From Sphingomonas vulcanisoli (GTDB lineage: Bacteria > Pseudomonadota > Alphaproteobacteria > Sphingomonadales > Sphingomonadaceae): a stretch of DNA of 64,000 bases. Positions 11,804 to 48,674 of the stretch are shown one piece after another. A program made the position numbers and the translations under genes. The notes under the pieces were generated by a model. The model did not search any database and was not told where the DNA came from. It saw only the letters and a list, made by a program, of their open reading frames with translations. How positions within the stretch are numbered: the first letter of the stretch is position 1; the number at the start of each line of letters is the position of its first letter. The stretch is taken from contig NZ_JAAOZC010000007.1 of assembly GCF_011761305.1 (NCBI RefSeq), positions 1-64,000 of the forward strand. Direction: 5' to 3'.

Positions 11804-11916
11804 TAAGCCCCTCCCCTTCAGGGGAGGGGGTGGGGGTGGGGGAGTCTGATCGCGGCTGGGTTATATGAGTGGGGGCGGTCCCCACCCCAACCCCTCCCCT
11901 GAAGGGGAGGGGCTTA
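11804..11916. repeat. Family A paired palindromic repeat (long-G form)
   Basis: Arms TAAGCCCCTCCCCTTCAGGG and the matching right arm enclose GGTGGGGGTGGGGG and CCCCACCCCAACCCC. Each arm is itself a hairpin (CCCCTCCCCTTCAGGGGAGGGG). The same sub-type, split and with a gene between its halves, makes the DUF559 cassette at 47680-48177. Confidence 0.85.
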
Positions 11917-46927: not shown

Positions 46928-47671
46928 ATGGCCGGCCATTCCAAATATAAGAACATCATGTACCGCAAGGGCGCGCAGGATAAGAAGCGCTCCACCCTTT
47001 TCTCCAAGCTCAGCCGCGAGATCACTGTCGCCGCCAAGGCGGGGCTGCCCGATCCGGACATGAACGCCCGGCTGCGCTCGGCGGTGATCGCGGCGCGCGC
47101 GCAATCGATGCCCAATGACAATATCAAGCGCGCGATCGACAAGGCCTCGGGCTCCGACATGGAGAATTACGAGGAGATCCGCTACGAAGGCTTCGGCCCC
47201 GCCGGCGTCGCGCTGATCGTCGAGACGCTGACGGACAACCGCAACCGCACCGCCACCAACGTCCGCCTCGCCTTCTCCAAGAACGGCGGCAATTTGGGCG
47301 CGCCGGGATCGGTGAGCCACGGCTTCGATCGGCTCGGCCTGATCAGCTATCCGGCGGGGGCAGGGGACGCCGATACGGTGTTCGAGGCCGCGCTGGAGGC
47401 GGGTGCCGACGATGTCGAGAGTGGCGAGGAAGGGCATTCGGTCTGGACCGCGCCCGAAAGCCTGCACGAAGTCGCCAAGGCGCTGGAAGCCAGCCTGGGC
47501 GCGCCCGAAGGCATCAAACTCGCCTGGCGCCCGCAGACCCACGCGCCCGTGGACGAGGCCGAGGCCACCACGCTGATCAAGCTGATCGACGCGCTGGAGG
47601 ACGATGATGACGTCCAGACCGTCTGGGGCAATTACGAGATTTCCGACGAAGTGATGGAGAAACTGGCGTAA
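46928..47671 (+). CDS. yebC: YebC/PmpR family translation/transcription factor
   Basis: A 247-residue protein opening [20 protein letters not shown], with [23 protein letters not shown] and [18 protein letters not shown]. All three domains of the family are present. Members were described as transcription regulators and more recently as factors that help ribosomes at proline stretches. In alphaproteobacteria it commonly precedes ruvC; here a 498-bp cassette separates them. Confidence 0.96.
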
Positions 47672-47679
47672 CAAGCACT

Positions 47680-48177
47680 AAGCCCCTCCCCTTCAGGAGT
47701 TGCAGGTCGGCCATGCTCCCAGCATGGCCTAAACAGCGTGGGACGCTGTTTACCTGCAACTGGGTTGGGGTGGGGGCGACAATGAAGCGAAATCCCGAAC
47801 TCGCCGATCATGCAAAGGCAATGCACCGCAACCCCACCGAGCCGGAGAAGCGGCTTTGGCGCAGCCTTTCGAATTCCCAATTGGGCGGCTTCAAGTTTCG
47901 CCGTCAGACTACGATCGATCCCTTTATCGCGGATTTCTTATGCCCCGCGAAAGCCGTGATCGTCGAGATTGATGGCGATACACATCAGGATATCGGGCGC
48001 GACCAGCGACGCGATGCCTATCTGGGATCGCTCGGCTATCGAGTGATCCGCTTCACGAATGCTGACGTGATGGGCAACATCGATGGGGTTCTAGAAGTCC
48101 TGCTCTCATCCCTGCAGGCTGCGCCGGATCGCCGCTGGCGTCCCCACCCCAACCCCTCCCCTGAAGGGGAGGGGCTT
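47680..48177. mobile_element. DUF559 gene cassette bounded by palindromic inverted repeats
   Basis: Left arm AAGCCCCTCCCCTTCAGG continues, after a 64-bp insert, as GGGTTGGGGTGGGG. The right arm (48141-48177) reads, reverse-complemented, AAGCCCCTCCCCTTCAGG-GGAG-GGGTTGGGGTGGGG. The arms therefore match except that the insert replaces GGAG. Between them lies one gene, DUF559. The cassette exactly fills the space from 9 bp after the yebC stop to 5 bp before the ruvC ATG. The same arms without a gene occur at 11804-11916. Confidence 0.7.
47698..47761. repeat. 64-bp cruciform element
   Basis: Outer 10-bp arms AGTTGCAGGT / ACCTGCAACT enclose two perfect hairpins: GGCCATGCT-CCC-AGCATGGCC (47709-47729) and AAACAGCGT-GGG-ACGCTGTTT (47731-47751). 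The whole forms a three-way junction with 28 paired positions and almost no free bases. It sits inside the left arm of the DUF559 cassette and is the only copy in the window. Confidence 0.85.
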
Positions 48178-48186
48178 GGGCGATGA
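47782..48186 (+). CDS. DUF559 (Vsr/PD-(D/E)xK-like) endonuclease
   Basis: A 134-residue protein: [40 protein letters not shown], then [20 protein letters not shown] and [15 protein letters not shown]. The Asp of IADF and the ExD of VEIDGD are the PD-(D/E)xK metal residues, so a DNA nickase or nuclease is likely. The last 14 residues ([14 protein letters not shown] and the final R) are encoded by the right palindromic arm. The stop overlaps the ruvC start by 4 bp. Confidence 0.88.
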
Positions 48187-48674
48187 TCATCCTCGGCCTC
48201 GATCCTGGTCTCGGCACGACCGGCTGGGGCGTGATCGCGGCGGAGGGGAATCGGCTCAGTCACATCGCCAACGGGCAGGTTCGCACCGACGCCAAGGAAG
48301 CGCTGTCTGCGCGGCTGTTGGCGCTGCACGATGCGCTCCACGATCTGATGCTCCTGCACCAGCCGAGCGGCGCCGCAGTCGAGGAAGTGTTCGTAAATAC
48401 CAACGCGCAATCGACGCTCAAGTTGGGTCAGGCGCGGGGCGTGATCCTATTGGTCGCGGCGCGCGCGGGCGTGGAAGTCGGCGAATATGCGCCGCGGTTG
48501 GTCAAGAAGGCCGTGGTCGGCACCGGCGCGGCGGAAAAGGTGCAGGTGCATGCGATGGTGTCACGCCTGCTGCCCGGCGTTAAGATCGCGGGTGCCGATG
48601 CCGCCGATGCGCTCGCGGTGGCGATCGCCCACGCCCATCATCTGGCGAGCGCCAGACGGAGCGTGGGCCGGTAG
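48183..48674 (+). CDS. ruvC: Holliday junction resolvase RuvC
   Basis: A 163-residue Ruv[21 protein letters not shown]. The four acidic catalytic residues correspond to D7, E67, D139 and D142 ([17 protein letters not shown]). It cuts four-way junctions during recombination. The GGGGAGGGG of the cassette's right arm lies where a Shine-Dalgarno would be. ruvA and ruvB, usually next, are not here; an opposed small gene follows. Confidence 0.97.

Follow-up and report, generated by a model that had tools for sequence, protein, structure and literature searches.

A DUF559 nuclease gene between inverted, putatively triplex-forming repeats in Sphingomonas vulcanisoli, and the case for a mobile element

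The locus between yebC and ruvC

We analyzed a window of 64,000 nucleotides from Sphingomonas vulcanisoli (the window being the whole stretch of DNA under study), which forms part of a 3.27-Mb genome (G000). The interval between yebC and ruvC holds a single gene, encoding a DUF559 protein, with inverted arms on either side (47680-47776 and 48142-48177; Table 1). The initial annotation had read the locus as one DUF559 gene enclosed by inverted arms, and we can confirm this: the outer parts of the arms (47680-47697 and 48160-48177) form a perfect 18-nt inverted pair with 100% complementarity, the inner parts (47762-47781 and 48136-48155) show 90% inverted pairing, and Pfam profiles match all three genes. 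In most arms, a hairpin made from strands a and a' is followed by a third block, a''. The right arm, read on the minus strand, has the order a, loop, a', TT, a'', and our triplex-motif finder detects it on this strand with its start at 48174. The arm copies that we read start with AAGCCCC or TAGCCCC. In its best reading, the DUF559 open reading frame extends from an ATG at 47782 to a stop codon at 48186; the C terminus is thus translated through the right arm, and the stop codon overlaps the start of ruvC. The right arm is coding sequence for the protein C terminus in most close relatives as well. A scan of the locus for promoters and terminators found none, and an Rfam search returned nothing except one miRNA match below threshold.

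Table 1. Features of the yebC-ruvC locus and of a gene-free copy, in window coordinates
Feature	Position	Strand	Basis or content
yebC, host gene, left neighbor	46928..47671	+	Pfam PF01709/PF20772
Left arm, outer part	47680..47697	+	AAG, pyrimidine strand a (CCCCTCCCC), loop, first GG of a'
64-nt three-way-junction hairpin module, splits a' of left arm	47698..47761	+	predicted fold
Left arm, inner part	47762..47776	+	remainder of a' and third strand a'' (GGGTTGGGGTGGGGG)
DUF559 gene, 134 aa, PD-(D/E)xK, predicted Vsr/EDxHD-like nuclease	47782..48186	+	PF04480
Right arm, inverted	48142..48177	-	CCCCACCCC AA CCCCTCCCC TGAA GGGGAGGGG CTT
ruvC, host gene, right neighbor	48183..48674	+	Pfam PF02075; start overlaps DUF559 stop
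Gene-free inverted pair, same arm family (putative passenger copy)	11805..11915	.	motif-finder matches 11808 (+), 11912 (-)

What had been set aside as an insert in the left arm is a hairpin module of 64 nt. As this module interrupts the arm, a triplex could not form there as drawn. Hairpin modules of 46-64 nt are found at the equal arm position in the window (47698-47761), in L002 (1520-1583), in L234 (3360-3423), and in L233 and L150. The 64-nt copies in the window, L002 and L234 share one common fold, a three-way junction, with much of the stem sequence different: all 78 of 78 cells of the 26 base pairs are paired, and 13 pairs have both sides changed. The 64-nt module is a structure that has been retained while its sequence was rewritten.

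The window protein matches PF04480 with an E-value of 7.4e-32 (109.9 bits; cut-off, 20.6 bits) and lies below the Vsr profiles (18.9 versus 97.85 bits in NCBIfam and 11.7 versus 27 bits in Pfam). Its closest named DUF559 homologues come mostly from Sphingomonas. An AlphaFold2 model of the protein (pLDDT 82) was compared to known structures with Foldseek, which placed 3hrl first (1.3e-8) and the catalytic domain of I-Bth0305I second (1.4e-4), with Vsr scoring weaker. I-Bth0305I belongs to the EDxHD class of homing endonucleases. The window protein is thus predicted to adopt a fold resembling I-Bth0305I and Vsr. The E, D and ExDG..H residues are at least 98% conserved among 131 armed DUF559 domains, which speaks for an active enzyme. 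According to PMC1189080, the E. coli DUF559 protein YcjD had already been matched to Vsr by profile. The likeness to Vsr and I-Bth0305I lies in the predicted fold; Vsr is a mismatch-repair nicking enzyme (PMC12907096) and I-Bth0305I a homing endonuclease, and in these sources triplex repeats are mentioned for neither.

The gene-free copy that the initial annotation had noted elsewhere in the window is present (Table 1), and about 30 gene-free pairs are found in the genome. A search of the genome with window positions 47600-48250 yielded at least 73 matches including the self-match, a lower bound as 40 of 124 candidates were scored. The 72 non-self matches listed comprise 31 close pairs and 10 unpaired copies. 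Among these listed matches, 30 of the 31 close pairs are in -/+ orientation, the remaining one (L002) is inverted too on reading, and inner gaps measure 19-68 nt, except for one of 293 nt. Gene-free pairs are mostly ~95-110 bp in size and consist of an arm, a short variable spacer and an inverted arm, as judged from 20 copies retrieved from the genome plus the window copy. One gene-free pair (L006 ~1505-1880; G000:C3:166376-166749) carries a spacer of ~290 nt rich in G and C runs, which is either an assembly artifact or a real expansion.

Altogether, the motif finder reports 17 triplex-motif matches within the 64-kb window. Apart from the copies in Table 1, they are located at 2980, 5205, 7249/7360, 33929/34053, 40272/40404, 58318, 59575/59702, 59924 and 62841/63003, and several of them resemble, by eye, the arms of the remaining DUF559 genes of this genome. 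The source genome encodes five DUF559 genes; GC-rich palindromes adjoin all five, with a different arm sequence each time. One of these five, L013, has a full inverted pair on its left and only a possible remnant on its right, and fails our score (see below).

Inverted arms at DUF559 genes

We scored each DUF559 gene by aligning its left flank locally with its inverted right flank (250-270 nt each) and taking the best score, with a threshold of at least 18. Family, class and phylum groups were drawn around the source genome and taken as Sphingomonadaceae, Alphaproteobacteria and Pseudomonadota, respectively. The sample consisted of the search loci and 80 of 112 further full-domain rows (32 were left unfetched). 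Of 193 loci, 192 contained the domain; after removal of one duplicate, 178 of the resulting 191 loci were usable, the rest having a partial domain or a short flank. As the loci are the best matches of a search, the sample leans toward strong DUF559 matches, and as several loci represent one site in related species, the counts are not independent. L225 and L151 apparently come from one genome and were not summed.

Matched inverted arms enclose 132 of the 159 usable DUF559 genes with a domain-HMM score of at least 75, a cut picked after the result was seen. By group, 26/28 usable loci pass in the genus (7 genomes), 61/87 in the family (0/18 low-scoring and 61/69 others) and 45/63 in class and phylum. 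None of the 19 divergent genes scoring below 75, 18 of which come from the family, has matched arms. These family genes (L171-L188) are armless, and several have homologous neighbors. Among the 27 of 159 genes lacking a matched pair by score, 23 still have a hairpin on one or both sides.

Several controls were run alongside. Shuffled flanks never scored above 14 (178 flanks, one shuffle each). Mispaired flanks reached the threshold in 8.7% of cases in the first set and in 14.6% in a later set, because the arms of different families are alike. Of 296 control genes, which are script-called, unannotated open reading frames from 20 random 20-kb stretches in 19 DUF559-containing genomes, a single one reached 18. 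This control is an IS transposase by reading of its sequence, has its own terminal repeats and serves as a positive control. A C-rich hairpin of 8 bp is found on none, one or both sides in 15, 44 and 100 of the 159 DUF559 genes, in 19, 0 and 0 of the 19 low-scoring ones, and in 529, 20 and 2 of 551 control genes. These findings together show that the arms are associated with DUF559 genes.

The later set was drawn from another class (that of G203, taken as Gammaproteobacteria); 32 of its 46 usable loci (from 48) pass, and 14 lack a matched pair. Loci from named genomes pass in 13 of 15 cases. From a plasmid collection we fetched 6 of 43 records: those from Sphingomonas (L259) and Deinococcus (L263) pass, one from Picosynechococcus (L261) scores 17, and those from E. 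coli (L260), N. gonorrhoeae (L262) and Photobacterium (L264) fail the score, each with a similar motif by eye on one side. In the plasmid of Picosynechococcus, a cyanobacterium, palindromes of a different sequence type (CCCCTAAATCCCCAATTTGGGG) lie on both sides of the DUF559 gene. The arrangement is thus widespread in the phylum and also found beyond it.

The triplex motif itself was counted in random 20-kb stretches. DUF559-positive genomes, a group that includes one genome (G063) carrying a low-scoring DUF559 gene only, contain 21 motifs in 800 kb, located in 10 of 40 stretches from 39 genomes; the other 30 stretches contain zero. Genomes without a PF04480 match contain 1 motif in 760 kb, in 1 of 38 stretches from 18 genomes. 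In one batch of 20 stretches, two did not exist. The difference has a Fisher p of 0.007, which ignores phylogeny and the fact that stretches within one genome are not independent. At a GC content of at least 0.58, the counts are 10/39 versus 1/27 stretches.

Arm type follows protein type. Protein identity predicts arm likeness among 107 armed loci with a Mantel r of 0.44 (largest of 2,000 permutation values, 0.11), and with an r of 0.40 after removal of same-site pairs (largest of 1,000 permutation values, 0.14). When permuted within genomes, best matches of at least 50% identity retain an effect of 0.111, compared to a null maximum of 0.032 in 300 permutations. The effect is modest, with 70% of 1,023 within-genome comparisons positive at this identity and 57% of all 3,609. 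It had been considered that the arms might be unrelated to DUF559 genes elsewhere; this is contradicted by the 132 matched loci and by the way in which arm likeness tracks protein likeness.

Arm sequences and known repeat families

Block a'' of the arms is the mirror image of a', in which G is kept and A is either kept or replaced by T. Examples of a' and a'' are GGGGAGAAGG with GGATGAGGGG, GGGAGAGGG with GGGTGAGGG and GGGGAGGGG with GGGGTGGGG. In the reverse-Hoogsteen purine-motif code, triplets are of the types G*G:C, A*A:T and T*A:T. As a'' mirrors a' under this code, which is in keeping with PMC4666352, one strand is able to fold back on itself into a.a'*a''. The code is perfect in 155 of 234 unique arms, representing 41 different a' cores, and the fit of these arms to their own a'' is 0.932, compared to 0.82 with a' swapped (maximum of 50 swaps, 0.831). 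For 173 asymmetric a' cores, the correct (mirror) orientation is favored 113 to 8. When only G is used to set the register, the partners of A are A in 170, T in 127, G in 23 and C in 11 cases in 179 arms of the first set, and A in 44, T in 30, G in 4 and C in 2 cases in 38 arms of the later set. These counts take arms with clean purine hairpins only (213/262 in the first set and 47/64 in the later set), for 179 and 38 of which a register was obtained. The rule was noticed on the first-set loci, for which it is post hoc, and then tested on the new loci of the later set.

We considered two other accounts of the third block. A direct repeat of a' was rejected as the main rule: in the first set, the mirror fits better in 109 cases and the direct repeat in 14, with 74 ties; in the later set, the mirror leads 19 to 6, with 12 ties. 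The four G-runs of the window arm family would permit a G-quadruplex, which may be an additional fold of the arms; as an explanation it was rejected, as the mirror asymmetry of 113 to 8 is not what a quadruplex requires.

On the basis of these three purine-motif blocks (a, a' and a''), most arms can be assigned to the BoxC/PIT/TM repeats. Hoyne et al. reportedly worked on BoxC/PIT elements in 2000. In PMC4666352 (Holder et al. 2015), the consensus is given as CCCTCNCCC N3-6 GGGNGAGGG N3 GGGNGAGGG. According to this study, TM repeats date back to the 1990s in the literature, are present in >260 genomes and are linked to genome instability, and CD and NMR show that the TM of E. coli forms a stable triplex in vitro; double-stranded DNA gave duplex and not triplex, and methylation in vivo was unblocked at the triplex guanines (PMC4666352). 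This main TM study reports no mobility gene linked to the repeats. The arms share with BoxC/PIT/TM the CCCTCNCCC-loop-GGGNGAGGG-linker-GGGNGAGGG architecture, the intergenic location, the partial arrangement in inverted pairs and the purine-motif triplex code; they differ in that the repeat pair encloses a nuclease gene here and in that many arm families lie outside the E. coli consensus. One of the 23 TM repeats published for E. coli K-12, no. 9 at 1351239-1351204 (PMC4666352), is located between fabI and ycjD. In MG1655, its sequence starts at 1351204, next to ycjD (annotated as DUF559) at 1351407-1351760, which has the motif on its 3' side only. In two genomes without ycjD, other genes lie beside sapF, and there is thus no clean ycjD empty site.

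The arms also recall REP/REPIN-RAYT (TnpREP) systems, which, according to PMC3116915, likewise have palindromes in inverted pairs, gene-free passengers and an enzyme gene near its own repeats. Indeed, a REPIN-like doublet with a short spacer is present in the 31 inverted pairs listed, and would be the putative replicating unit. The differences are that the enzyme here is of PD-(D/E)xK and not of Y1 HUH type, that a GTAG tag next to the stem is absent in the arm copies read, and that the arms follow the triplex code. The DUF559 gene sits between both arms; REPs or terminal repeats flank some RAYT genes too. A RAYT as mover was rejected: the only Y1 match in the source genome (PF01797; L039, C10:495-851) appears on reading to be of IS200 type, its flanks lack DUF559-type arms, and its own hairpins adjoin it. 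The initial remark that no Y1 transposase is seen is thus corrected in that the genome does have one Y1 match.

Alphaproteobacterial REPs with a CGTC tag have been reported without a dedicated transposase (PMC3733652, Di Nocera et al. 2013). They resemble the arms as alphaproteobacterial palindromes arranged in dimers. By the features stated there, namely a CGTC tag, a stem opening with A/T pairs and a CCA tail, membership was rejected; the window arms are C-rich with a G-rich mirror tail and thus represent a class other than the CGTC-REPs. Finally, IS200/IS605 and other insertion sequences with MITEs have an autonomous gene copy and gene-free inverted-repeat derivatives. The arms share with these the gene-bearing copy and gene-free derivatives, and differ in lacking a transposase of known class and in that no target-site duplication was seen. 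Searches of open-licence literature listed no paper whose title or start of abstract connects DUF559/COG2852 with REP, palindromic or transposing repeats; such a link may be in print elsewhere. The name DUF559 occurs in only 14 papers of this literature.

Mobility and the role of the nuclease

We compared DUF559 sites between related genomes. Close homologues of the window protein carry similar arms in at least six unrelated flank groups (L225 and L226; L229 and L230; L231, L232 and L234; L227; L228; and the yebC-ruvC gap with L224, L233 and L236). One such element, carried by a plasmid of Sphingomonas parapaucimobilis, separates sufB from sufC. L224, L233 and L236 are all armed, the pair of L233 scoring only 15.5 with its right arm split by a module. 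In six congeners, the yebC-ruvC gap measures 0 to 148 nt and contains DUF559 in none: two have no gap, one has ~31 nt, two have a short hairpin and one has a 148-nt gene-free pair of another family. An armless DUF559 gene at this place in relatives, against which the initial annotation had wished its reading to be checked, was thus found in 0/6 congeners.

In a second genus, we looked at two DUF559 sites of G185 in the relatives G166, G170 and G236, whose flanks are 79-97% identical. The first site is empty in G236, and in G166 and G170 it is taken by a leftover arm together with a gene-free pair from another family. At the second, G170 retains a lone geneless arm, and G166 and G236 have gene-free pairs of another family. 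A third G185 site (L118) is occupied in the relatives also, and several sites of the family are common to species. These two sites, and the yebC-ruvC gap in 7 genomes, display the insertion polymorphism expected of an autonomous transposable element, gain and loss being indistinguishable in these comparisons. The genome G050 contains two 98%-identical elements (L168 and L169) at different places. Their likeness runs ~40 and 30 nt past the arms, and they thus seem to sit in, or to travel with, another shared stretch. Searches with joined flanks for an empty site in G050 and G004 gave nothing beyond the two copies already known and some weak, partial matches, and no target-site duplication was readable in the G050 elements, the gene-free copies or the two G185 sites. 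Mobility is supported by comparison. The analysis shows that arms and gene travel as one unit, from which it does not follow that DUF559 is the catalyst; catalysis could instead come from homologous recombination between repeats or from a host enzyme.

That DUF559 mobilizes the arms, with gene-free copies as passengers, was proposed in the initial annotation and is now the best-supported reading, though one that we infer. The stretch 47680-48177 is probably a mobile element whose sole gene encodes a Vsr-like nuclease and whose gene-free passengers are moved by this enzyme in trans. In such an element, an arm, made of a hairpin with C-rich a and G-rich a' and of the third block a'', would fold as a.a'*a'' on one strand. 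The DUF559 protein would recognize the folded arm in single-stranded DNA, as it arises in replication or repair, and the nuclease would cut at its base. The cut would allow the unit between two inverted arms to move or to be copied to other intergenic sites. The gene-free inverted pairs (~30 found here, most ~95-110 bp) would be passengers using the enzyme in trans. We infer that DUF559 would be the enzyme of movement, that its target would be the triplex rather than a hairpin or duplex, and that the route would be one of cutting and rejoining.

The alternative that survives best is that DUF559 is a repair nuclease, either of Vsr type or one that resolves triplexes and hairpins, which protects the cell at the repeats and is co-selected with them, another agent spreading the repeats. 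The modeled fold close to Vsr would fit such a role, as would the Caulobacter DUF559 protein, which is read as a Vsr-like repair enzyme and reported to cause an SOS response in a methylase mutant (PMC12907096); co-occurrence of gene and repeat would be expected too. We nevertheless consider it unlikely, because it leaves unexplained why the gene lies between matched inverted arms at 132/159 loci, why arm type follows protein type, and why the five copies in the source genome are different and do not share an arm type.

It is more doubtful still that DUF559 is mere cargo, carried along between two repeats that spread by homologous recombination, slippage or a host enzyme. Other genes are rarely found between matched arms (1/296, with both-sided hairpins in 2/551), conservation of the catalytic-type residues reaches 98% or more across the 131 armed domains, and the sampled genomes that lack DUF559 seldom contain the motif; in its favor, arms and gene would move as a unit whatever the motor, and DUF559 is a putative catalyst.

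We see similarly little room for a homing-type element, in which the nuclease would cut cognate empty intergenic sites and recombination would copy the element in, the arms acting only in end protection or as recombination substrates. Close homologues in at least six unrelated flank groups and two near-identical copies within one genome argue against it, and homing at one allele does not yield dozens of gene-free copies, even though the catalytic domain of I-Bth0305I ranks second among the structural matches, the yebC-ruvC site is occupied at three other named loci and some other sites are common to species. That many genes are flanked by chance, simply because intergenic regions are repeat-rich, is hardly conceivable: repeats are frequent here, with 17 motif matches in the window, but the controls contradict it (1/296 open reading frames, both-sided hairpins in 2/551 and 8.7% of mispaired flanks).

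Returning to DUF559 as the mobilizing enzyme, a wider generalization has, in our estimate, an even chance of being right. The elements would form a separate class of mobile DNA with intramolecular triplex ends and with a triplex-recognizing Vsr/EDxHD nuclease as their only gene. The BoxC/PIT/TM repeats throughout bacteria, including those of E. coli, would be gene-free descendants, and many DUF559 'repair' proteins, such as E. coli YcjD and perhaps Caulobacter VsrA, would be resident or domesticated enzymes.

Beyond the initial annotation, the palindrome can now be assigned to the known triplex-forming BoxC/PIT motif, and our findings suggest that the spread of these repeats, long without an explanation, is driven by DUF559 as the partner that had been missing. 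A consistently linked nuclease gives the unexplained BoxC/PIT repeats a gene that can be deleted in experiments. If the enzyme reads the folded triplex, it would provide a natural example of a non-B DNA structure acting as a transposon end and, if this is true, a large protein family of unknown function, DUF559, would be re-labeled.
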